A DNA stretch of 11,679 nt from Deltaproteobacteria bacterium (lineage in GTDB: Bacteria > Myxococcota > UBA796 > SXON01). The stretch is from NCBI GenBank assembly GCA_947483545.1, contig CANKNP010000154.1:1-11679 (forward strand), given 5' to 3'. Positions 1 through 10,473 of this stretch are shown piece by piece. A program made the translations under genes and the position numbers. Below the pieces are notes generated by a model that was given only the letters and a program-made list of their open reading frames with translations, did not search any database and was not told the origin of the DNA. Each line of letters opens with the position of its first letter. Within the stretch, counting starts at the first letter, position 1.

Positions 1-1117
1 CCCCGGCGGGGGCGCTCGGGGCGGCGGGAGGTTTCGCCTTCGTCAAGATCGGGTTGCGGGTGCTCGTGCGAACCGCGCTCCCCTCGTCGACCAGCCCCTC
101 ATCGTCGTCCGCGAGGGTGCCTCCATCTTCGGTCAGCACCGAGTCGGTGAGCGGGTTCGGCTCCCGGGGCGCCTCGCGCATCGCCTTGACCAGCGGGGGG
201 ATCATCGTCTCCGCCCACTCGGTCAGGCCGTCGCCATCGAAGGCGCGAGACAGCGCACGACAGCGCGCCACGACGTCCGCCGCGCTCGGCCGCTCCTTCA
301 CGCCGTGGGCCAGCAGCGAGCGCAGGAACTCCAGGAGCTGCTCGCCCGCCGTCCCCGACATCGACGGGGTGTTCGCGCGCAGGAACTCCAGGCGTTCATC
401 GACAAATTCAGCGTGCTTCTCCGGGCGGGAGCGCGCCTTCCCGAACCGCTCGAGGGCCAGCAACTCAAACAGGGTCGCGCCCACCGAGTACACATCGCTC
501 GCGGGCGTGTCCGGCTCCATGAACAGCCGCTCGGGCGCCATGTACTCGATGGACCCGAATTGCATCTCCTGGGTGTGGCTCTCGCGCTGGTCGAACTCGG
601 CGCGTGCAACGCCGAAGTCGAGCACCTTCACCGTGCCCGACTCGTCCAGCATGATGTTCGACGGCTTGATGTCCCGGTGAATCACCCGCAGCGGGCGCTC
701 GCCCTGGTAAGGTGGCCGGTTGTACGCCGCATCCAACGCGCTCGCGACGAAGCTGATCGCCTCCAAGGCGCCCCGTGGCGGCACCGGCACGCCCCGGTCC
801 ACGTGCGCCTGGACCACCGCCTTGAAGTCCACCGCCTCCAGGTACTCCATCACGACCGCGACGCGCCCGCCGATCGTGGTCAGCCCGATCACATCGACGA
901 TGTTGCGGTGCCGCAGCCAACCCAAGAGCCGCGCCTCGTCCCGCATGCGCCGGGCGACCTCATGGTCCTGGCTCCATTGCTGGTGCAGCAGTTTGACGGC
1001 CGCGAGCCGCGAAAACCCGTCATGGTGCATGACCTTCGCCAGGTACACGCTACCGAATCCCCCGGCCGCGATCTCGCGGAGGAAGTGGAACTTGCGGGCG
1101 GCTTCACGGCTGGCCAG
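1..1117 (-). CDS. Eukaryotic-type Ser/Thr protein kinase, C-terminus cut by window edge
   Basis: Cytoplasmic protein kinase that phosphorylates Ser/Thr of unknown partners. About 372 residues are visible and the frame is open to the left edge. Counting from a CTG at 1117, the glycine loop GGFGSV is at residues 19-24, the ATP-anchoring Lys of AAVKLL at about 42, and the helix-C Glu of RDEA at about 61. HRDIKPSN has its catalytic Asp at about 149, LDFG its metal-binding Asp at about 167, and MAPE its Glu at about 196. All key catalytic residues are present, so it should be active. The tail after about residue 285 is acidic, then Ala/Pro-rich. The start is odd: between the in-frame stop at 1187-1189 and the glycine loop there is no ATG, GTG or TTG. 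CTG at 1115-1117 has a GGAG six bases upstream (1124-1127) and gives a protein starting (M)ASREAARKFHF. It lies 58 bases after the 178-aa gene on the same strand, probably in one transcript. The kinase call is very sure; the start is not. Confidence 0.93.
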   Translation of the reverse strand, partial: MASREAARKFHFLREIAAGGFGSVYLAKVMHHDGFSRLAAVKLLHQQWSQDHEVARRMRDEARLLGWLRHRNIVDVIGLTTIGGRVAVVMEYLEAVDFKAVVQAHVDRGVPVPPRGALEAISFVASALDAAYNRPPYQGERPLRVIHRDIKPSNIMLDESGTVKVLDFGVARAEFDQRESHTQEMQFGSIEYMAPERLFMEPDTPASDVYSVGATLFELLALERFGKARSRPEKHAEFVDERLEFLRANTPSMSGTAGEQLLEFLRSLLAHGVKERPSAADVVARCRALSRAFDGDGLTEWAETMIPPLVKAMREAPREPNPLTDSVLTEDGGTLADDDEGLVDEGSAVRTSTRNPILTKAKPPAAPSAPAG

Positions 1118-1175: not shown

Positions 1176-1712
1176 TCAGCGCCGGATCAGCATGAAGTAG
1201 TCGCCCGTGGGCTTGTCCGACCGGAAGGCGGCGCCGATCAACGCGCTCGTGCCGACCCGGCGGAGCTTGTCGATCATGCCGCCGTACACCAACTTGTCCG
1301 GGAACCCGGTGTTGTCCTTGATCGGCGGAAATTCGCTGGGCGCGTCGGCCGCGACCTGTGTGTAGTCGAACCAACTCCCGGTGCCATCCGTCTGTACCAG
1401 GAAATGCCCAGGGCCCGTGATCCAGCTCATCGCCTGGTGGTTGTAGCCCTGCACCTTGCCGCTGCGCTTCATCACCCGCTTCTGAAATGCGTTGAACAAA
1501 GGCAGCGAGTTCTGCCCTTCATGGATGATCACCTGGCCGTCTTCGCCATGCAGCGCATCCAAGGGCGCTTCCCTTCCGGAAGCCTTCTCCCACAGCGCGA
1601 CGAGGTCCCGCTTGCCCAACCCGCGCATCCAGTTCACCCGCTCGTCCACGGTGTGCGCCTCCATCCCGGCGATGACGGCGTCCAGCGAGTCGAGTGAGGG
1701 CAAGGGGATCAT
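1176..1712 (-). CDS. Hypothetical protein, 178 aa, upstream of the kinase
   Basis: I do not recognise this family. The protein is soluble-looking, with no signal peptide or membrane segment. The N-terminal third is helical and charged (DERVNWMRGLGKRDLVALWEK). A central stretch, QNSLPLFNAFQKRVMKR at about residues 67-83, is followed by an aromatic and glycine-rich section (MSWITGPGHFLVQ at about 95-107) that looks like beta strands. It ends in GDYFMLIRR. I chose the ATG at 1712 because GGAG (1718-1721) stands five bases before it. An in-frame ATG at 1769 would add 19 residues, but it lacks a ribosome site and lies inside the 1761-1795 dyad. The kinase follows on the same strand after a 58-base gap, so the two are probably co-transcribed. 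A role as kinase substrate or regulator is only a guess. Confidence 0.72.
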   Translation of the reverse strand: MIPLPSLDSLDAVIAGMEAHTVDERVNWMRGLGKRDLVALWEKASGREAPLDALHGEDGQVIIHEGQNSLPLFNAFQKRVMKRSGKVQGYNHQAMSWITGPGHFLVQTDGTGSWFDYTQVAADAPSEFPPIKDNTGFPDKLVYGGMIDKLRRVGTSALIGAAFRSDKPTGDYFMLIRR

Positions 1713-2037: not shown

Positions 2038-4719
2038 ATGTTGCTTTTCCTCCTCGCCTGTACCGGCGCCCCCAAAGGCCCCGATGACACGAACAATGAC
2101 GCGGACAACGACGGATCCCTCGCCTCCGTAGACTGCGACGACCAGGACGCTGGCGTGCACCCCGGCGCCGACGAGCGCTGCAACGGGGCCGACGACGACT
2201 GCGACGGAGATGTCGATGAGGACGCGATCGACGCGTCCTCCTGGTACCCGGACGCAGACGGGGACAGCTTCGGCGACCCTGCGGCCGGGACAGTGTCCTG
2301 TGTGCAGCCTGAGGGCTACATCGAGGATGCGACCGACTGCGACGACGGCCGGCCGGACGTAAACCCCGCCGCGATCGAGGTCTGCGCCGAGGGCGACGAG
2401 GACTGTGACGGCCTGGAGGGCGAAGCCGACCCCTCCGTGGACGCGACGGTGTGGTACCGCGATCAGGATGGCGACGGCTTCGGGCCGGACGACGCCGTGA
2501 CCCTCGCGCAGTGCGAGGCCCCCGCCGGCTACGCGCCGTTCACCGGCGACTGTGACGACCTCGATGCGTTGGCCAACCCCGACGATTGTGACGACGCCGA
2601 GGCGACAGCCCACCCCGGCGGCACCGAGCTCTGCGATGCGCTTGGCATCGACGAGGACTGCGACGGCGCGATCGACACCGACGACCCGGACGCGGTCGGG
2701 GGCCCGGAGCGCTGGGCGGACGGCGACGGGGATCGGTTCGGCGCTGGCGTGTCCGTGGCCTCCTGCTGGCCCATCGTCGGGTACGTCGAGGTCGATGGCG
2801 ACTGTGACGACGCCGACGGGGCCGTGAACCCCGACGCCTCTGAGGTCTGCGACGACGCCGATACCGACGAGGATTGCGACGGCGCCGCTGACGATCTCGA
2901 CGCGTCCGTGGACCCGTCCGGCTGGACGAGCCGATTCCGGGATGCAGACGAGGACGGCTTCGGGGATCCCACCGCCTCCGTTGCCGCCTGCGACGTGCCC
3001 CTCGGCTACGTCGAGAACCCGGCTGACTGCGACGACACGCGGGCCGAGGCCAACCCACTCGGCGACGAGATCTGCGACGGGCTGAGCGTGGACGAGGACT
3101 GCGATGGCCTGGTCGACACCGACGACGACAGCGCGACCGGCGGCCCCGACTGGTTCGTGGATCGCGATGGGGACGGCTACGGCACCCCCGACGCCCCCAC
3201 CATCGCCTCCTGCTGGGAGGTCTCGGGCCGGGTCACCGACGAAGGCGATTGCGACGACGGGAACAGCACGACGTACCCGGGCGCGGCCGAGCTCTGCAAC
3301 GATGTGGACGACGATTGCGATGCCGCGACCAGCGAAGACGGCACCGCCTCCTTCGAGGCCGCAGACGGAACGTGGGAGGATTGGAGCACCGTGCTCTCCA
3401 CGGACCGGACCGACCCCACCTCCGTGGTCGTGGACGGGGCCGGCGCCCTTCACCTGTGCGCGGGCACCTGGTCCGCGCTGTTCGATGTCTCCGCGGACTT
3501 CGACGTGGACGGGCGGGACGGCGCGACCATCGACGGCGGCTACGGCGGCACGCTCTTCGATGTGGACGGCGCGGACCTGAGCGTGACCGACGTCGTCCTG
3601 ACCGGCGGGGCCGGCGATGCGAGGCTCCCGAGCGGCTTGGACGCAGGTGGCGTCCTCGCGTGTACAGGCGGGGCCGAGGTCACGTTCTCGTCGGTGGAGA
3701 TGACCGACAACGCCGCAGAGCTGGGCGGCGCGCTCGCTGTCGATGACTGCTCGGTACAGGTGAGCGATTCGACGGGCGACGACAACGTGGCCAGCTTGGG
3801 AGGCGCCATCTACGTCGTAGACGGCAAGGTCGCGCTCGATGGCGTGACCTGGAGCGCGAGTGAGGCCGACGGTGGGGGCGGCGCCTACGTGGGCGAGGGG
3901 GGGGCGTTGGACATGCAGGACAGCTTGTTCGACGGGAGCGATGCGATCGAAGGCGGGGGTTTGTTGCTGGAGGGCGATGGGTCGGCGTCATGCAGCGGCT
4001 CGGACGGGGTCTACGCGGGCATCGTGGGAACCCGTGGGGGCAGCGCAGTCGTGATCGCGTCCCGATCGGACGCGAGCTTCGACGCGCTCTTGTGCGACCT
4101 CGGTACCGGCGCCGACGAGAACCTGCCGGCCGACATCACCGCCGGCTCGGCCGGCACGTGGACCTACGACGACGATGCCACGTTCACCTGCGACAGCGAC
4201 GGGTGCGGCGACAATTCAACGACGTGGGCGGTCGGCAGCGAATCGTCGGAGAACGAGAGCGCCGAGATTGCGGTCGGCAACATCGTCCAGGCGACCACAA
4301 ACGGCGTGCTGGACGAGTTCGCGATGTACATGGTCGTGCCCAGCGGGTGCCTGTTTGATTGGTACGTCTTCAGCTCCGACGCGGCGGAGAGCGGGGTCTG
4401 GACCCTGGAGTGGGGGGACACGGGGGTGGTTCCGGCGTCGGGCACCGGGTGGTACGCCAGCGGGCCGGTCGGCCTGTCCGTGACATCCGGCCGGTTCTAC
4501 GTGCCCATGATCGGGTACACGTGCTCGGCATCGGCGACGATCTACTACGAAACAGGCACCGGGGGCGACGCGGGGTGGGGGACGCTGAAGAACTACGCCC
4601 TGGACACGGAGACCATCGAAAGTGGGAGCTATGCGCCGCGAACCACGGATACCGAGCTCACGGTCTCGGATTGGCTCGATGTCACTTTGTATATGAGCTA
4701 CACGTTCTCGGCGGGGTGA
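2038..4719 (+). CDS. Large acidic MopE-type repeat protein, putative lipoprotein, 893 aa
   Basis: Probable surface or periplasmic metal-binding protein. The N-terminus MLLFLLAC fits a lipobox (LLAC, Cys8) but is very short for a signal peptide. No in-frame ATG/GTG/TTG alternative and no good ribosome site lies just upstream. Residues 28-435 hold about six modules of the kind named putative metal-binding motif (MopE type). Each has DCDD (at about 32, 100, 171, 255, 330 and 404), an NP or HPG step, a C-DEDCDG step, then W--D-DGDxFG (at about 72, 142, 229, 302 and 375). A degenerate extra half-module is at 182-195. The Asp-rich loops should bind Ca2+ or other divalent metal. Residues 455-700 are Gly/Asp-rich with short strands and GGA/GGG steps, as in right-handed beta-helix proteins. 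Residues 725-893 form a separate beta-rich region with Cys771 and Cys829. No C-terminal sorting tag is seen. It is convergent with the KS-like gene, 15 bases apart. The family is typical of Myxococcota; the exact function is unknown. Confidence 0.88.
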   Translation: MLLFLLACTGAPKGPDDTNNDADNDGSLASVDCDDQDAGVHPGADERCNGADDDCDGDVDEDAIDASSWYPDADGDSFGDPAAGTVSCVQPEGYIEDATDCDDGRPDVNPAAIEVCAEGDEDCDGLEGEADPSVDATVWYRDQDGDGFGPDDAVTLAQCEAPAGYAPFTGDCDDLDALANPDDCDDAEATAHPGGTELCDALGIDEDCDGAIDTDDPDAVGGPERWADGDGDRFGAGVSVASCWPIVGYVEVDGDCDDADGAVNPDASEVCDDADTDEDCDGAADDLDASVDPSGWTSRFRDADEDGFGDPTASVAACDVPLGYVENPADCDDTRAEANPLGDEICDGLSVDEDCDGLVDTDDDSATGGPDWFVDRDGDGYGTPDAPTIASCWEVSGRVTDEGDCDDGNSTTYPGAAELCNDVDDDCDAATSEDGTASFEAADGTWEDWSTVLSTDRTDPTSVVVDGAGALHLCAGTWSALFDVSADFDVDGRDGATIDGGYGGTLFDVDGADLSVTDVVLTGGAGDARLPSGLDAGGVLACTGGAEVTFSSVEMTDNAAELGGALAVDDCSVQVSDSTGDDNVASLGGAIYVVDGKVALDGVTWSASEADGGGGAYVGEGGALDMQDSLFDGSDAIEGGGLLLEGDGSASCSGSDGVYAGIVGTRGGSAVVIASRSDASFDALLCDLGTGADENLPADITAGSAGTWTYDDDATFTCDSDGCGDNSTTWAVGSESSENESAEIAVGNIVQATTNGVLDEFAMYMVVPSGCLFDWYVFSSDAAESGVWTLEWGDTGVVPASGTGWYASGPVGLSVTSGRFYVPMIGYTCSASATIYYETGTGGDAGWGTLKNYALDTETIESGSYAPRTTDTELTVSDWLDVTLYMSYTFSAG

Positions 4720-4734: not shown

Positions 4735-5502
4735 CTATAAAACCCCCCATAATCCCGCCACCGGCCCACAATCCCCCATCGCCGTGGACCAGTCGAGGTT
4801 GCCGATCTCGTCCGCCTCCCCCGGCCCGAACAGCACGAACACGGCCGCCTCTCCGGGGGGTGTGAGCTGTCCGAGCCGTAGCCGATCCCGAGCGCTTGCC
4901 AGGTCTGTGGCTGAGAATGCCGCTCCGGCCAGGGCGAATGGCGCGCGGCCTTCATCGACCGCGAGCTGGGCGGCACGGATGGCCTGACGGCCCGCGCTGG
5001 CCTCGCCGGCGAAGGTGCCGTTCTCGCCGCGCAGGCCGTGTTGAATGGAGACGTGGGCGAGCACCATGTTTGGCAACGTGCGGAGCGGAAGGAGCGGCGG
5101 GTACAGTTCGCGTCCGCGGCCGCCGAGCCGATCCCGATCGAGCATGCCGGCATGGTGCATGGCCAGCAGCGATGGCTCGGCCTCGGGGTCGTCGGGCGGC
5201 TCGCGGCCGATGGCGACGAAGATGGCGGTCTCTTCCGCCGCGCCGGCGGGCAACGCGCGGAGCGCACGACCGGCGGCAGGCAGCGCGAGGCGGGCCGCCC
5301 GGGCGAGCAGGCGGGCGTCCTTCTTGCGCGCCAGCCAGCCGGTGAGATCCGGGCCTTGAACGCACGCAGCGCGGGGCTCAGGGAGCGCTTCGAGGTGGGG
5401 TTGGGGAGCGAGGGCCGAGCGCCCCTCGCGGATCGCTGTGAGCACCTCCGCGACGTCGTCCCCGAGGGGGGTGACGATCCCGACGCCGAGGATGCGGCTC
5501 AT
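4735..5502 (-). CDS. KS-like protein without catalytic Cys (chain-length-factor-like), 255 aa
   Basis: Half-length relative of beta-ketoacyl-ACP synthases. It starts MSRILGVGIVTPLGDDV, the usual first strand of a KS. Its segment HGLRGENGTFAGEASAG (about 155-171) aligns without gaps to GPRSTVSTACTSSS of the preceding KS, so the nucleophilic Cys is replaced by Ala168. The C-terminal thiolase half with the two His motifs is absent (KS is about 400 aa). It therefore cannot condense on its own and more likely partners a real KS, as chain-length factors do; this is inference. ATG overlaps the TGA of the upstream KS (ATGA, 5499-5502) and has no ribosome site of its own, which implies translational coupling and possibly a heterodimer. 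A longer open frame to 5946 is only the shadow of that KS. It belongs to the small 'ketoacyl-synthase N-terminal-like' group that includes ApeC of aryl-polyene clusters. It is a paralogue of the gene at 7248-8021. Confidence 0.83.
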   Translation of the reverse strand: MSRILGVGIVTPLGDDVAEVLTAIREGRSALAPQPHLEALPEPRAACVQGPDLTGWLARKKDARLLARAARLALPAAGRALRALPAGAAEETAIFVAIGREPPDDPEAEPSLLAMHHAGMLDRDRLGGRGRELYPPLLPLRTLPNMVLAHVSIQHGLRGENGTFAGEASAGRQAIRAAQLAVDEGRAPFALAGAAFSATDLASARDRLRLGQLTPPGEAAVFVLFGPGEADEIGNLDWSTAMGDCGPVAGLWGVL

Positions 5503-6725
5503 GGCGCCGAGAACACAAGGCTCCCGTTCGAGCCGCCGAAGCCAAAGGCGTTGGTGAGCGTGTGGCGCAGGGTGCCGTGCGTGGGCCTTGCGACCAGCAG
5601 GTGGTCGAGATCCCCGCACGCCGGGTCGGGGTTGTCCAGGTTGCGCGTGGGGGGCAGGATCTGGTCCCGCAGCGCGAGGATGCAGAGGATGGCCTCGACG
5701 GCGCCGCATGCCGCGACGAGGTGGCCCATCTGGCCCTTGGTGCTCGACACCGGGACGCGCTGAGCGCCGAAGACCCGGTGAATCGCCTGGCTCTCGGACT
5801 GGTCGTTCTGCACGGTGCTGGTGCCGTGCGCGTTGATGTAGCCGACGTCGGCGGGCGTGATGCCGGCGTCCTCCAGGGCCTCCAACATCGCCGCGGCGGC
5901 GCCCCGGCCGTCTGGCGGCGAGTCGGTGATGCGCCAGGCGTTGCACGAGCAGCCGTAGCCGGTGACCTCCGCGAGGATCGGCGCACCGCGCGCCATCGCC
6001 ATCTCTCGTTCCTCAAGCACCAGCATGCCGGCGCCCTCGCCGAGCACGAAGCCATCGCGGTGAATGTCAAACGGCCGACTCGCGTGCTCCGGGGCGTCAT
6101 TTCGCGTGGACAGCGCGCCCAACTTGGAGAAGCCGACGACCATCAGCGGCTCCGAGAGCACATCCACGCCGCCAGCGATCATCGCGTCCACCTCGCCGCG
6201 TCGGATGCGCAGCACCGCCTCGCCGATCGACTGGCTGCTGCTCGTACACGCCGTGGATACCGTGCTCCGCGGGCCGAGCGCCCCGAGTCGCTGGGCGATC
6301 AGCTTCGTCGGCGCGTCGGGCGCCAAGGCTGCGATCTCCTCGACGCGCGGCGGCTCGCTGCGAAACAGCCACTCCAGCGGGGGCCGGGCGGCCTCGCTGC
6401 CGAGGCAGACCCCCAGCCGTTCGCCAGTTGGCGGTGGCCCACCCCCGGCACGATTCATCGCGCCTGGGTAGCTCCCCCACGCCTCGTCGAGCGCAAGCAG
6501 CGCGAGCCGGCGTTTGAGGTCCGCGCCCGCGCCCTCGACCGGGACCTCGGCCGAGAACCGCACCGGGTAATCCGTGGCGTCAAACCGTCGAATCGTCCGC
6601 ACGCCGTTCTCCGCGGCGACGGTGGCGCGCCACGAAGCCTCGACCCCCACGCCCAGCGGCGTCACCATCCCGATCGCGGTCACGACGACGCGACGGCGGG
6701 CGTCCCGAAGAAGGGGGTCAGTCAC
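5499..6725 (-). CDS. Beta-ketoacyl-ACP synthase (FabF/KASII-like), 408 aa
   Basis: Condensing enzyme that joins malonyl-ACP to a growing acyl chain with loss of CO2, in the cytoplasm. Full family length. The catalytic triad is intact: Cys160 in STACTSSS, His300 in NAHGTST, and His334 in KGQMGH with Lys330. The C-terminal TNAFGFGGSN loop is present. Start GTG (6723-6725) overlaps the end of the dehydratase gene by 8 bases (GTGACTGA). It lacks a clear ribosome site, so coupling is likely. The 3' end overlaps the Cys-less KS-like gene by ATGA, the same arrangement as KS-alpha/chain-length factor pairs of type II polyketide loci. Whether it serves fatty-acid or secondary metabolism cannot be read from the sequence, but the neighbours favour a specialised pathway. 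Confidence 0.95.
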   Translation of the reverse strand: MTDPLLRDARRRVVVTAIGMVTPLGVGVEASWRATVAAENGVRTIRRFDATDYPVRFSAEVPVEGAGADLKRRLALLALDEAWGSYPGAMNRAGGGPPPTGERLGVCLGSEAARPPLEWLFRSEPPRVEEIAALAPDAPTKLIAQRLGALGPRSTVSTACTSSSQSIGEAVLRIRRGEVDAMIAGGVDVLSEPLMVVGFSKLGALSTRNDAPEHASRPFDIHRDGFVLGEGAGMLVLEEREMAMARGAPILAEVTGYGCSCNAWRITDSPPDGRGAAAAMLEALEDAGITPADVGYINAHGTSTVQNDQSESQAIHRVFGAQRVPVSSTKGQMGHLVAACGAVEAILCILALRDQILPPTRNLDNPDPACGDLDHLLVARPTHGTLRHTLTNAFGFGGSNGSLVFSAP

Positions 6726-7200
6726 CCGGGTAGCCGGGCCACAGGCGCGCGAGCTCGCTCCGCTCCAGCCGCTCCAGCCGCTCGGCCTCGGCCGGGCTCG
6801 CCAAAGGTACCGCGTTGAAGACGAACACCTCCTCGGCTTGGGCCACCACCTTCCCGTCCACGCGGGTCTTCACCGCGACGACGCTGCTCTCCTCGCGCAG
6901 CTCCAGGATCGTGGACTCGAAGCAGGCAAGTTCGCCGGGGCGGACGAATTTCCGGAACTTCACGTTGTTCGCCATCGACAGGATCGGGAAGGGCCAGTCG
7001 CCCCGATCCTTCCGCACGGTGTAGCCGATCAATTTGCCGGAGAGCTGCGCCATCGCCTCCAGAAGGAGCACGCCAGGAACCACCGGAAAGCCTGGGAAGT
7101 GGTCCTCGAAGAACGGGGAGTCGTCCGGGAAGACCATGGAGCCGCTGGCCGAACGGCCAAGGTCGATGTGGTCGATGCGGGTCAGCCAACGCCAGCGCAC
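6718..7200 (-). CDS. 3-hydroxyacyl-ACP dehydratase, FabZ-type hotdog fold, 160 aa
   Basis: Removes water from 3-hydroxyacyl-ACP to give the trans-2-enoyl chain. The hotdog signature FFEDHFPGFPVVPGV (about 30-44) carries catalytic His34, and LLLEAMAQ carries Glu48. Both match FabZ. FabZ is usually about 145-150 aa; this one has a short charged C-terminal extension (residues 142-160, Glu/Arg/Leu-rich). I chose GTG at 7198-7200 because GGAG (7206-7209) lies five bases before it. A longer frame reaching 7452 only runs over the end of the upstream gene out of frame. It sits 47 bases after the 257-aa KS-like gene and overlaps the next KS by 8 bases. With two KSs and no visible enoyl reductase, the chain may keep its double bonds; this is inference. 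Confidence 0.92.
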   Translation of the reverse strand: MRWRWLTRIDHIDLGRSASGSMVFPDDSPFFEDHFPGFPVVPGVLLLEAMAQLSGKLIGYTVRKDRGDWPFPILSMANNVKFRKFVRPGELACFESTILELREESSVVAVKTRVDGKVVAQAEEVFVFNAVPLASPAEAERLERLERSELARLWPGYPGD

Positions 7201-7205
7201 GGGGT

Positions 7206-7209
7206 CTCC
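7206..7209 (-). promoter_or_regulatory. Ribosome binding site for the dehydratase GTG start
   Basis: GGAG on the minus strand, five bases before GTG at 7200. It fixes the start in preference to upstream codons of the same frame that lie inside the preceding gene. Confidence 0.6.
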
Positions 7210-7247
7210 GAAGGGGGGCGAGGGTAACCCGCAGCGCGGGCGCGGCC

Positions 7248-8021
7248 TCAGCTGCTCCACGCCCCCCGCACCCCGCCGATGTCCACCACGCGGTTCGTGA
7301 GCCAGGCCCGCGCCCAAGCCACCGATACCGCCGCGGCGCCCATCGCCCCGAAGCCCTCCTCTACGCCGTCCTCGGAGGGGAGGCCTGCGGTCACGATGGC
7401 ATCTCCTCGCTCGCCGGCGACGAGCACGACGAACGCCGCGCCCTCCGAGCACGGCCCGCCAACGACGGCCTCAGCGCCGACGAGCGAGTCCGCTGCTCCT
7501 GCGATCGCGAGGTCCACGCGCCCCTCGGCCACGGCGTGCACCGCCTGGGCCAACGCGATGGCCCCGCCAAGCGCCCCATCGCACCAGTTGCCGTTGTCCC
7601 CGCGCAGGTCGTGCTGCGCGGAGGCGTAGCCCAGCACGTTGTTGGAGAGTCCCTTCACGAGCCACAACGGCGGGATCAGCGGCACGCCCTCGCGCGCAAA
7701 CTTGCCAGGGTCTCCCTGGGCGATCGCCAACGCGCCGGCGAGGTCCTCCGCGTCCCCGGCTTGGGGCGAAGCCCCGACGTACAGGCCGCGTCGCTCGGGA
7801 GGTACAACCTGCCACTCTGGCGCGCCGGCGAGCGCTGAGTTCACCCCGGCCACGCCCAACTGCACCGCCCGGGTCATGGTCTTCAGGTGCTTCTTCGGCA
7901 CCCCAAACGCGATGGGGTCAAAGCCGGGCACGCTGCCCGGCTCGGCAGGACCGAGGCCGAAGATCCCGATGCCGGCGGGGCAGAACAGGGACGCGGAGAC
8001 GATTCGTACGTGGCGGGGCAT
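7248..8021 (-). CDS. Second KS-like protein without catalytic Cys, 257 aa
   Basis: Paralogue of the 255-aa protein at the other end of this operon. It begins MPRHVRIVSASLFCPAGIG, a KS-type first strand. The segment around residues 120-168 (NNVLGYASAQHDLRGDNGN, then LAIAGAADSL) aligns with the sister protein (NMVLAHVSIQHGLRGENGT, then FALAGAAFSA). At the nucleophile position it has Ala150, the same replacement as Ala168 in the sister. A nearby Cys147 is offset by three residues and is not the canonical site. The C-terminal half of a KS with its two His is absent. Expected role: non-catalytic partner or chain-length/priming factor for a KS, perhaps the one at 9306-10473; this is inference. ATG at 8021 precedes the conserved first strand; the ribosome site is weak. 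An in-frame extension to 8108 reads into the repeat region and is rejected. Confidence 0.78.
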   Translation of the reverse strand: MPRHVRIVSASLFCPAGIGIFGLGPAEPGSVPGFDPIAFGVPKKHLKTMTRAVQLGVAGVNSALAGAPEWQVVPPERRGLYVGASPQAGDAEDLAGALAIAQGDPGKFAREGVPLIPPLWLVKGLSNNVLGYASAQHDLRGDNGNWCDGALGGAIALAQAVHAVAEGRVDLAIAGAADSLVGAEAVVGGPCSEGAAFVVLVAGERGDAIVTAGLPSEDGVEEGFGAMGAAAVSVAWARAWLTNRVVDIGGVRGAWSS

Positions 8022-8071: not shown

Positions 8072-8257
8072 CGGGTGATCGCCACTGGGGGCAACGACGA
8101 CTGGCCACTGCGCAACGAGCACCAGCTGGCGAGCCAGCGCAGCCAACTCGGTGCTTGCGCCTGGAGGATTCTCAACTTGGCGGGACCCCCGGCGCGGGGG
8201 CGCGGCGCTCCATCTGCCGGAGGGGCGGCGCGGTCTGGCGGCCTGGCACAACGGACC

Positions 8258-8346
8258 GGACAGAGGTGGGTACCCTCAACTGAGGGTGGGTACCTGTGTC
8301 CGGACAGAGGTGGGTACCCTCAACTCGAGGGTGGGTACCTGTGTCC
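8258..8346. repeat. Two tandem 44/45-bp dyad units carrying GGTGGGTACC
   Basis: Unit 1 is 8258-8301 and unit 2 is 8302-8346, differing by one inserted C. Each begins GGACAGAGG, ends TGTGTCC and is an imperfect palindrome. The 10-mer GGTGGGTACC occurs four times in direct orientation (8265, 8285, 8309 and 8330), spaced 20, 24 and 21 bases. The block is bounded by perfect inverted repeats GGACCGGACA (8253-8262) and TGTCCGGTCC (8342-8351). About two helical turns between copies suggests stacked protein-binding sites, such as a transposase end or an operator array. Confidence 0.75.
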
Positions 8347-8354
8347 GGTCCCGA

Positions 8355-8582
8355 CGAAGTGTTCGCCCCCAGCGTCGTCTTCGGCCTCGGTGGCGTTCAC
8401 CACCCCCGAAGTGTTCGCCGCTGGCGTCGTCTTCGGCCTCGGTGGCGTTCACCACCCCCGAAGTGTTCGCCCCCAGCGTCGTCTTCAGCCTCGGTGGCGT
8501 TCACCACCCCCGAAGCGTTCGCCCCCAGCGTCGTCTTCGGCCTCGGTGGCGTTCACCACCCCCGAAGCGTTCGCCGCTGGCG
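8355..8582. repeat. 52-bp tandem repeat, about 4.4 copies, each able to form a hairpin
   Basis: Units start at 8355, 8407, 8459, 8511 and 8563 (partial) with an exact 52-base period. They are nearly identical. The core after GTTCGCC or CGTTCGCC is CCCAGCG in units 1, 3 and 4 but GCTGGCG in units 2 and 5. Across each unit boundary CTTCGG pairs with CCGAAG and GGTGG with CCACC (for example 8379-8411), giving a repeated stem-loop. Unit 3 has one stem mismatch (CTTCAG). The period is not a multiple of three, so the array is unlikely to be coding. Confidence 0.88.
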
Positions 8583-8618: not shown

Positions 8619-8864
8619 ATGTCTACCGCGCGCATCGAACTCCGGATCAAGCCGGACGCCAAGGCCCTCATCCAACGAGCTGCCGCACTCTCGCACGTCT
8701 CGCTGACCGACTTCATCACGGACATGGCTCTCGCCCGTGCCCGAGAGCTCGTGAACGGGGTGGCGTCTCCCCCGTTGCGCCAGCCGCGTCCGATCGGCGG
8801 CTGGTCCTTCGAGCTGCCGGAGGGCTGGGACGCGTCGCTCGACGACATGGCTGAGTACCGATGA
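8619..8864 (+). CDS. DUF1778-type (TacA-like) ribbon-helix-helix antitoxin, 81 aa
   Basis: Antitoxin expected to bind and silence the toxin encoded by the next gene and to repress the pair's promoter. Residues 3-45 (ARIELRIKPDAKALIQ, then AAALSHVSLTDFITDMAL) match the DUF1778 pattern: a short DNA-binding strand followed by two helices. The C-terminus, LPEGWDASLDDMAEYR (about 66-81), resembles the acidic tail (a D-LDDF-EYM-like ending) of antitoxins that partner PIN toxins of the Sll0205-like type. The gene thus looks like a DUF1778 DNA-binding head on a VapB/Phd-type toxin-binding tail. ATG 8619 is preferred; ATG 8598 is also in frame (seven extra residues) but falls inside the candidate operator. 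Neither has a strong ribosome site. Its TGA overlaps the toxin ATG (ATGA, 8861-8864). DUF1778 proteins normally pair with GNAT acetyltransferase toxins, so the pairing is unusual. Confidence 0.85.
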   Translation: MSTARIELRIKPDAKALIQRAAALSHVSLTDFITDMALARARELVNGVASPPLRQPRPIGGWSFELPEGWDASLDDMAEYR

Positions 8865-9265
8865 GGTTTCTGATCGACACCCACATCCTGCTCTGGGCCG
8901 CGCTGGACAGTCCTCGCCTGCGCGGCTCTGCGCGCCAGGACTTCGAGAACCCGGAGAACTCGCTCGTGGTCAGCGTCACGACGATGTGGGACATCGGCAT
9001 CAAGTATTCCATCGGCAAGCTGCCCTTGCCCGTGGCGCCCCGGGACTTCTTCGCGCGCGAGATCGCCACCCGGCGCTACGAGGTCATAGACGTCCAGCGT
9101 CCCCATGCCGAGTGGCAGGCCGAGCTTCCGTTCCCGGCAGACGGACACCGCGATCCCTTCGATCGGCTGCTCGTCAGCCAGGCCATCGTCGAGGGGATCC
9201 CCCTGCTCTCCGGCGACGGTCGCCTCCACGCCTACACAACGTGGGGCCTGGTGCTGCGCCGATGA
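8861..9265 (+). CDS. vapC: PIN-domain ribonuclease toxin (VapC, Sll0205-like), 134 aa
   Basis: Type II toxin, a Mg2+-dependent RNase expected to cut tRNA or rRNA when free of antitoxin. It starts MRFLIDTHILLWAALDSPRL, with the first acidic residue at Asp6. MWDIGIKYSIGKLPLP (about 42-57) is the usual WEIAIK-SLGKL block of this subfamily, but Asp44 replaces the common Glu. GHRDPFDRLLVSQA (about 95-108) carries Asp98 and Asp101, and LSGDGRL (116-122) carries Asp119. The acidic site is thus complete with one conservative change. Length is normal for the family. It overlaps the antitoxin gene by four bases, so expression is coupled. It is convergent with the ketoacyl synthase on the other strand, 40 bases apart. 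Confidence 0.93.
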   Translation: MRFLIDTHILLWAALDSPRLRGSARQDFENPENSLVVSVTTMWDIGIKYSIGKLPLPVAPRDFFAREIATRRYEVIDVQRPHAEWQAELPFPADGHRDPFDRLLVSQAIVEGIPLLSGDGRLHAYTTWGLVLRR

Positions 9266-9305: not shown

Positions 9306-10473
9306 CTACGGCGCCTCCACGATCAACGCGCAGTTCTGCCCGCCAAAGCCGAAGGAGTTGGAGAGGATGTATCGGGCCTGGTGGGCCAGCGGCTCCCGGA
9401 GGACGTGGGCGCGCAGCTCCAAGTCCACCTCGACGAGCCCTGGGGTGCCTGGCAGCACCCCAGACGGGAAAATACCAAGGCACAACGCGAGCTCTACCGC
9501 GCCAGCCGCCGCGATGGTGTGCCCGACGGCGCCCTTGAAGGAGCTGACCGGTACCCCGCCCAGGACCCGGTAGATCGCGAGGCACTCGGCGTGATCGCCT
9601 ACCGGCGTGCCTGTACCGTGCGCGTTGACGTAGTCGATGTCCGCGGGCTCCAGGTTCGCCTCCTTGAGCGCCCGCCGCATCGCCAGCTCCGCGCCGTCCC
9701 CCGTCGGGTGCGGGTGCGTGACGTTGTACGCATCCACGCTCGTGCCACCCCCTACGATGTAGCCCAGCACGTGATCGTCGCTGGAGACGTCTGCCTCGCG
9801 CTGGAGCCGGAAGATCGCGGCGCCCTCGCCGATGAGGAAGCCATCCCGGTGGCGGTCGAACGGCCGGCCCGCGGTGGGGGAGAGGGCGCCGAGCACTACG
9901 AAGGAGAGGTAGCCGATGGGGTGGAGCATCGAGTCGTGGCCGCCGGCGTAGGCGACATCCACGTCGCCGCGGTGAACGGCGCGGGCGGCCTGCAGGATGG
10001 ACTGGGCGGAGGCGGCGCAGGCCGAGAAGCTGGTCTCCTGGACGGTCGCGCCAATGGCGTCGCCCAGTACCTGGGTGACCCGCTCAGGCTGATGGCGACG
10101 AGGGGAGGGGCGGCCGGGGGCGAGGTCGCGGGCGATGGCCTCGCGGTCGAACTCGGCGCCGCCGATGCGGATGTGCGGGTACAGGTCGATCGCCAGCTCC
10201 GCGGGGGTCAAGCTGGAGAGCCCGGTGCCGAGGTAAAGACCGACGCGGGCGCTGGGGGGGGGCGGGGGGCAACGCACCGGCCAAGGCGGCGGCGGCGAGG
10301 CTCCCCTTGCGGTCGTCGGGGAACCGCGGATCGTCTGGCACGGCGGCGCGCGCGACCCCGGGGATGCCGAGGATCAACCCGTCGAGATCGGGCGTGGCCA
10401 GGCAGCGGGTGGGGGGGGTGAGGGCATCGCCGGCGGCGCAGCGGACGGCGGCGGCGGTGATGGCGATGCGCAC
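9306..10473 (-). CDS. Beta-ketoacyl-ACP synthase broken by a frameshift at a G9 tract
   Basis: A second full-size condensing enzyme. The N-terminal part reads from GTG 10473 (MRIAITAAAVRC, then DRKGSLAAAALAGALPP) to the G-rich tract at 10254-10269. The remainder (SARVGLYLGTGLSS onward, to stop 9306) is in another frame. Removing one base from the tract joins both parts into about 388 aa, normal for a KS. In composite numbering the triad is complete: Cys152 in SFSACAAS, His285 in NAHGTGT, and His318 in KGAVGHT. The C-terminal SNSFGFGGQN is present. A GTG at 10277 could start the second part alone (323 aa), but this would lack the first KS strand. The coding is otherwise undamaged, so a sequencing or assembly error, a recent mutation or poly-G phase variation all remain possible. 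It is transcribed toward the KS-like operon at 8021, from which it is separated by the toxin-antitoxin island, and is divergent from the SulP gene. Confidence 0.85.
10254..10269. repeat. Poly-G tract (G9-C-G6) at the frameshift point
   Basis: Nine G (10254-10262), one C, then six G (10264-10269) on the plus strand, read as C6-G-C9 within the synthase gene. The downstream frame is restored if the tract is one base shorter, for example G8. A further G8 run (10411-10418) lies in the same gene without disturbing the frame. Such tracts are prone to replication slippage and to sequencing error. Confidence 0.75.

Follow-up and report, generated by a model that had tools for sequence, protein, structure and literature searches.

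Two half-size, cysteine-less ketosynthase-like families recur with two intact ketosynthases and an acyl-thioester reductase in Myxococcota

The window analyzed here, a stretch of 11,679 nucleotides, appears to encode the core enzymes for condensation and dehydration in a conserved synthase of the discrete-protein (type II) fatty-acid/polyketide kind. Two half-length ketosynthase (KS)-like proteins without the catalytic cysteine, KSN1 and KSN2, recur in related loci with two ketosynthases, KSA and KSB. In our view, the best explanation of this arrangement, and a reasonably probable one, is a type II synthase that has its KS/chain-length-factor pair in duplicate and releases its product as an aldehyde. 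KSN1 and KSN2 would be its non-catalytic, chain-length-factor-like partners, with the greater part of the KS C-terminal domain gone.

Results

Gene layout of the window

The genes considered are the following.

2-1048, minus strand: Ser/Thr protein kinase, gene cut by the window edge
1176-1712, minus strand: 178-aa protein without Pfam match, upstream of the kinase
4735-5502, minus strand: KSN1, 255 aa, half-length Cys-less KS-like protein, its start overlapping the KSB stop by 4 bases
5499-6725, minus strand: KSB, 408 aa, intact FabF-like ketosynthase (Cys-His-Lys-His)
6718-7200, minus strand: FabZ/FabA-like 3-hydroxyacyl-ACP dehydratase, 160 aa, with a Pfam FabA-like domain; start codon GTG, chosen to give the length found in relatives
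7248-8021, minus strand: KSN2, 257 aa, half-length Cys-less KS-like protein, nearest in the tree to the full-length Cys-less KS (F14) of distant loci
9306-10473, minus strand: KSA, second ketosynthase, upstream of KSN2, with what looks like a frameshift within a C-rich stretch

The coordinates that a sequence-only reading had given for KSN1, KSB, KSN2, and KSA were right, and its description of two half-size proteins around a dehydratase and a true KS (KSB) stands, but the second KS, which it placed just upstream, lies 1.28 kb from KSN2, and its homology is split over two frames (10473-10300 and 10250-9309). Since this gap, which contains an opposite-strand antitoxin/PIN toxin pair and tandem repeats, separates KSA from KSN2, the compact gene group is KSN2-dehydratase-KSB-KSN1. 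KSA may be dead in this window; the KSA queries taken from L001, L002, and L003 each run in one open frame. The 178-aa protein is also found upstream of the kinase in L001, L003, and L009 and is tied to the KS system through neighborhood only.

Related loci

We found 45 related loci, many of them partial, with a common set of dehydratase-KSB-KSN1-Ser/Thr kinase-KSA-(malonyltransferase)-KSN2-ACP-acyl-thioester reductase (F3). Genes for chain-length factors stand beside that of the catalytic KS, typically with overlapping stop and start. Both half-KS genes combine the loss of the Cys with a position beside a catalytic KS gene: KSB and KSN1 adjoin in 15 of 15 cases, 12 of them with a 4-base overlap, and KSA and KSN2 are same-strand neighbors in 18 of 32. 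Kinase homologs directly precede KSA in 23 of the 29 records holding both and are absent from the distant loci L040-L045. In the distant loci, the KSN2 position is occupied by F14, whose members lack the Cys but retain both His and the Lys (6/6), and KSN1 is fused to KSA, not to KSB, in four of them (L041, L043, and L044, read whole, and L045, judged from length and cluster). In the main group of loci, neither a ketoreductase nor an enoyl reductase family is a recurrent member. A mirror-tree test favored no KS/half-KS pair, the highest partial correlation being that between KSN1 and KSN2 (0.66).

Sequence and predicted fold of KSN1 and KSN2

The two half-size proteins are paralogs, as the sequence-only reading had noticed from shared motifs: BLASTP aligns them with 33% identity over 174 columns (E value of 8e-14), and their profile-profile probability is 99.5. 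Pfam detects the KS N-terminal domain (PF00109) alone in KSN1 (1.4e-11) and KSN2 (2.6e-06), which thus do not have the full two-domain KS fold found in F14, and matches both KS domains in KSB. Neither half-KS of the window gives a thiolase match, and the placement in an unrelated thiolase group that the earlier reading had named as fatal to it did not come about.

At the position of FabF Cys164, both window proteins carry Ala, as had been proposed, whereas KSB and KSA of the window have the complete Cys-His-Lys-His set. Ala is nevertheless not a conserved state, since the nucleophile position varies freely across the families, with A7, P4, E3, R2, F1, W1, M1, and H1 in the 20 rows of the KSN1 alignment and R7, E5, A4, P3, G2, and Q1 in the 22 rows of the KSN2 alignment, none of which has Cys. 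His304 is missing from all 20 KSN1 and 22 KSN2 rows (41 gaps and one Arg), Lys336 from every row of both, and His341 from all 22 KSN2 rows and all but one of the 20 KSN1 rows. The sequence-only reading had both proteins stop before the His-containing half, but they are not simply truncated: an internal deletion has taken out the greater part of the C-terminal domain, and a piece that aligns with the helix following FabF His341 is retained, usually without the His.

The predicted folds of KSN1 and KSN2 match FabF across most of their length; the KSN1 model is weak, with a pLDDT of about 45 at residues 131-140, where conservation is high. In each family, conservation peaks in one 38-residue segment, picked after the alignments had been inspected, that holds 18 invariant residues. 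This segment presumably lies at the KS dimer interface, where it should face the partner and line its pocket. KSN1 and KSN2 are conserved protein families rather than remnants.

Phylogeny

Of 107 rows, 87 entered a quick tree and 57 a careful one, with the ApeC-like proteins of genomes G001 and G003 as ApeC references. In the careful tree, KSN2 and F14 form a group (support of 95/94), the FabF branch includes neither KSA nor KSB, and KSB is not recovered as a single group, two changes being needed. A KS row of the aryl-polyene (APE)-like kind, itself on a long branch, joins KSA (99/96). Among the outside rows, the one closest to KSN1, KSN2, and F14 is the Cys-less KS encoded in L133, a cluster on a Streptomyces plasmid (89/80). 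ApeC occupies its own long branch. Approximately unbiased (AU) tests did not reject KSN1 with ApeC (P = 0.278), KSN1 with KSN2 as one group (P = 0.185), or ApeC with KSN1, KSN2, and F14; because none of these three other groupings was rejected, independent shrinking of the partners is favored but not proved.

Acyl-thioester reductase F3 and distribution across genomes

F3 matches PigE (2.7e-34) and the cyanobacterial AAR (2.4e-15) by profile, and its catalytic Cys, which by our count on the alignment lines up with chain position 296 of PigE, is invariant in 10 of 10 rows. It adjoins the ACP in 25/25 and 7/7 places examined. From these sequence features, F3 probably releases the finished chain as an aldehyde.

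Among 377 genomes, taken as Myxococcota since the group contains the genomes behind loci so assigned, 57 hold KSN2-type proteins, 51 hold F3, and 47 hold both. The KSN2-type count comprises 39 genomes at 220 bits or more (half-length form) and 18 at 80-185 bits (full-length form), by cutoffs set by hand after viewing the list; the rest of the 131 matching genomes were dropped as likely ordinary KS and were not read individually. For F3, 51 genomes scored at least 175 bits, and 4 weaker matches (75-92 bits, in long reading frames) were dropped. With few candidates scored per genome, F3 was not seen in 8 of the 18 full-length-form and 2 of the 39 half-length-form genomes. A separate canonical FabF exceeds the family cutoff in 6 of the 7 relatives' genomes checked, with none above it in G009. 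We therefore reject a housekeeping fatty-acid locus, and the ordinary complete fatty-acid locus against which the earlier reading had hedged did not appear.

Discussion

We propose that each half-size protein probably pairs with an intact KS as a heterodimer, its retained N-terminal half forming the KS dimer interface and reaching the partner's acyl pocket. KSB would pair with KSN1, its constant neighbor with the 4-base overlap, and KSA most simply with KSN2, although the fusions of KSN1 to KSA in distant loci make this assignment ambiguous. A malonyltransferase, either housekeeping FabD or locus encoded, would load malonyl units onto the dedicated ACP, KSA and KSB would extend the chain, a FabG-type ketoreductase encoded elsewhere would reduce it, and the dehydratase would remove water. 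By shaping the pocket, the half-size partners would limit or select chain length, and F3 would convert the finished acyl-ACP to an aldehyde via a Cys-linked thioester. The Ser/Thr kinase, present in most loci outside the distant group, may regulate the system.

Alternatively, the loci may encode a specialized second fatty-acid synthase under kinase control, in which KSN1 and KSN2 act as ACP-docking or assembly factors and not as pocket partners. Retention of the fold despite the loss of catalytic residues would suit such a role, as would the linkage between kinase and KS genes at many loci, but conservation is highest in the very segment that should line the partner's pocket, and the full-length relatives retain a complete KS, so we judge this alternative unlikely.

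The APE systems offer a close likeness to our proposed synthase. PMC8358021 describes ApeC as a chain-length factor that is roughly half as large as its KS and contains a single thiolase fold domain. Like the window, the ApeO-ApeC system joins an intact KS to a half-size Cys-less partner in which mainly the first thiolase domain is left, and a second KS is present in APE loci too. A variant APE locus, with KSN1 or KSN2 as ApeC beside ApeO and an aryl polyene as product, would also fit the grouping of the APE-like KS with KSA and the AU tests that leave ApeC free to join KSN1, or KSN1, KSN2, and F14. The likeness to ApeC that the sequence-only reading drew is supported for the build of the partner, whereas Pfam lends no support to family membership: no match of KSN1 or KSN2 to PF13723 (ketoacyl-synt_2) was reported at E values up to 10 (HMMER filters drop most matches above about 0.1), whereas the ApeC-like proteins of L068 and L069 match it (1.7e-15 and 7.5e-09). 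Fold searches listed no ApeC chain among their matches, which excludes nothing. Moreover, G001 and G003 each have an additional APE-like locus with a half-size protein that matches PF13723, ApeO-ApeC has one half-size partner where our system has two, and the window-type loci are linked to the acyl-thioester reductase and the kinase. Neither the ACP-reductase pair nor the kinase is known to belong to the APE genes, and we consider a variant APE locus less likely still.

KSQ-domain decarboxylation probably requires both His and the Lys. The full-length F14 proteins, with these residues and no Cys, could accordingly invite the view that the half-size proteins make the starter as KSQ-like malonyl-ACP decarboxylases instead of setting length, but the near-complete loss of these residues from KSN1 and KSN2 makes this improbable. 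Finally, that we are looking at the decayed leftovers of a KS operon, either pseudogenes or artifacts of truncation, as the frame-broken KSA and the toxin-antitoxin pair inside the cluster might suggest, is hardly credible, because it is contradicted by the conservation of KSN1 and KSN2, with many homologs, the invariant residues of each family, and the same neighbors in many genomes.

Compared with other systems, our preferred doubled synthase resembles the ishigamide-type highly reducing type II polyketide synthases (KS/CLF with discrete KR, DH, and ACP), the make-up that we read in the gene list of L133, in combining a KS and a Cys-less partner with a dehydratase, a malonyltransferase, and an ACP. 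The ishigamide-type partner is full length, whereas here there are two, of half size, and release is probably reductive. KSA and KSB are FabF-like and the dehydratase is FabZ-like, as in a canonical FabF synthase, from which the system differs in the tree position of both KS and in the separate FabF of 6 of the 7 genomes checked. F3 belongs by profile to the same reductase family as the thioester reductase domain of PigE/TamH and AAR, with the catalytic Cys kept (for PigE, PMC8341465), but it stands alone, at about 300 residues and without an aminotransferase domain.

The two-module condensing system suggested from the window is plausible and gains strength, since loci repeatedly combine two KS with two half-KS families and a duplicated KS/partner pair would fit the tree, although KSB does not form one group. 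More tentatively, it is possible that an ancestral KS/chain-length-factor pair was duplicated as a unit and that both inactive partners afterwards became smaller, each on its own and separately from ApeC, down to a minimal half-KS. The outcome would be a two-stage, kinase-regulated machine in which one pair serves the starting or medium range and the other elongates, and which makes a chain of set length that is let go as an aldehyde; this machine would be a trait of the lineage in a large, uncultured section of the Myxococcota.

As the sequence-only reading had supposed, our literature searches listed no paper on this gene combination: the individual parts are of known kinds, their combination is apparently new, and a chain-building machine present in many uncultured Myxococcota has apparently gone undescribed. 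An antiSMASH-based survey reports type II polyketide synthases to be rare in the phylum (PMC13213394); our hand-set cut adds a widespread synthase. Because the related loci offer a natural series from full-length to half-size Cys-less KS, the minimal needs of a chain-length factor become directly testable, and the system points to an aldehyde-derived lipid or metabolite.

Gene layout

The window carries on its minus strand the genes for two ketosynthases (KSA and KSB), two half-length, Cys-less KS-like paralogues (KSN1 and KSN2) and a dehydratase, in the 5' to 3' order KSA, KSN2, dehydratase, KSB, KSN1, and no ketoreductase is present in its 11,679 nt.

Features of the window
10473-9306, minus: KSA
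8619-9265, plus: TacA1-like antitoxin and PIN-domain toxin pair, between KSA and KSN2
8021-7248, minus: KSN2
7200-6718, minus: dehydratase
6725-5499, minus: KSB
5502-4735, minus: KSN1
2038-4719, plus: 893-aa protein, flanked by KSN1 and the kinase, both encoded on the other strand
1176-1712, minus: 178-aa protein without Pfam match, past KSN1, adjoining the kinase here and in relatives L001, L003 and L009
2-1048, minus: Ser/Thr kinase, past KSN1

KSA and KSN2 are 1.28 kb apart, with the antitoxin/toxin genes, at a place where the gap of L001 measures 15 bases, and tandem repeats between them. The repeat arrays (8256-8575; a 44-base unit in 2.1 copies and a 52-base unit in 4.2 copies) lie beside the toxin-antitoxin pair. 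The 893-aa protein has six matched, putatively metal-binding MopE-type stretches. The KSA homology is split over two frames by an apparent frameshift, with the junction in a C-rich stretch at 10300-10250 (minus strand), and the KSA queries from L001, L002 and L003 are single open frames; the window copy may be dead (true loss) or misread (sequencing error).

Conserved gene set and distribution

A single KSN2-profile scan of genome contigs yielded 45 related loci, hence 46 records with the window, and our own gene calling and clustering gave the following presence counts, many records ending inside the cluster: KSN2 39, KSA 32, kinase 29, acyl-thioester reductase (F3) 25, ACP 25, KSB 19, dehydratase 17, malonyltransferase 11 and a full-length Cys-less KS (F14) 6. 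KSN1 is separate in 16 records, fused in 4 and cut in one. Where both partners are present, adjacency is complete for KSB/KSN1 (15/15), dehydratase/KSB (17/17) and ACP/F3 (25/25), and is seen in 23/29 for kinase/KSA, 9/16 for KSN1/kinase and 18/32 for KSA/KSN2. The most complete arrangement reads dehydratase-KSB-KSN1-kinase-KSA-(malonyltransferase)-KSN2-ACP-F3. The window's closest relatives, L001 and L002, have the order KSA-KSN2-dehydratase-KSB-KSN1, which L009 and L029 keep with extra genes inserted; in L003, the two halves are divergent. In all five, F3 lies away from the KS genes and adjoins ACP.

In L004, L005, L012, L020, L024 and L036, a lipoprotein-like family (F12, 340-395 aa) is encoded upstream of the dehydratase but on the other strand, in some with one gene in between; its L005 member gave no Pfam match. 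The record titles of L002, L007, L010 and L013 name Bifidobacterium breve or Klebsiella pneumoniae, and these MAG titles look mislabelled because the loci are so close to Myxococcota ones.

In the distant loci L040-L045, F14 occupies the KSN2 position and the kinase is absent. Four of them carry a KSN1-KSA fusion (three read whole). A ketoreductase family lies near four and an OYE-type reductase family near five, as assigned by a Pfam run on one member of each.

F3 was present in 11/11 genomes examined. Across the phylum of genome G001, 131 of 377 genomes have a KSN2-profile match with E<=1e-3, the weaker matches probably being mostly ordinary KS; by hand count, 39 have half-length-type and 18 full-length-type scores. 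F3 reaches at least 175 bits in 51/377. With only 5 to 7 candidates scored per genome, KSN2-type and F3 occur together in 47 genomes and F3 alone in 4, F3 accompanying the half-length type in 37/39 and the full-length type in 10/18 (Fisher p 4e-45, kinship of genomes ignored). The KSN1 profile matches 73 genomes at E<=1e-12, some of these being cross-hits to KSN2.

F3 matched no Pfam family above its cut-off. NCBIfam relates it to the PigE reductase half (L020 protein, 7.4e-33), and its profile matches PigE (2.7e-34) and acyl-ACP reductase (2.4e-15) in the PDB. A Cys invariant in 10/10 F3 rows aligns, as counted by hand, with PigE chain position 296, and Cys296 is the conserved reductase Cys according to PMC8341465. 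The motif AESL occurs in all 12 ACP sequences or starts inspected. Five whole ACPs (L005, L012, L020, L028, L036) have a conserved C-terminal extension, ∼60 residues past the usual ACP length.

Origin and conservation of the half-size proteins

A careful tree of 57 N-terminal halves grouped KSN1 (100/98), KSN2 (100/99), KSN2 with F14 (95/94) and all three (94/96). KSA, KSB, a Streptomyces KS and an aryl polyene (APE)-like KS clustered at 98/96, outside canonical FabF, and KSB was not recovered as one group. This tree is compatible with, and no proof of, duplication of a KS/partner pair. AU tests rejected no alternative grouping (KSN1 with KSN2 without F14, p 0.185; KSN1 with ApeC, the half-size partner of APE synthesis, 0.278; all with ApeC, 0.256), so that independent shrinking of the half-size proteins is favoured, though unproved. 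Two of five genomes tested (G001, G003) contain a separate APE-like locus (L068, L069) that encodes a KS together with a half-size protein resembling ApeC, the remaining genes being named from first residues only.

When each family is aligned by itself, the columns at FabF positions 127-164, a segment picked post hoc on alignments already inspected, have a mean identity of 0.89 in KSN1 versus 0.64 elsewhere and 0.87 in KSN2 versus 0.65, values reached by 4/254 and 7/256 circular shifts, respectively. In one common KS alignment, the segment/elsewhere values are 0.75/0.50 (KSN1), 0.83/0.48 (KSN2), 0.87/0.72 (F14), 0.59/0.48 (KSA) and 0.55/0.60 (KSB); like for like, the half-size proteins thus show the sharpest contrast, KSA a mild one and KSB none. 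By comparison with known KS structures, this segment should span the dimer interface and line the partner's pocket. A Cys-Asp-Gly just ahead of the lost nucleophile position (window KSN2 residues 147-149) is invariant in 30/30 KSN2 rows.

Proposed mechanism

Adjacency and overlap suggest that KSB pairs with KSN1, and adjacency that KSA pairs with KSN2; the KSN1-KSA fusions favour a different pairing, in the distant group if not elsewhere. Our literature search, whose coverage left out most subscription papers, found nothing on this gene combination. The closest pathway logic is presumably that of ishigamide-type synthases. ApeC is the closest known half-size partner (PMC8358021), and PigE and the cyanobacterial acyl-ACP reductase AAR are the closest known counterparts of the release step. 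The best-supported mechanism would be a machine in which the KS/chain-length-factor unit is doubled, the partners are minimal and the chain is probably released by reduction.
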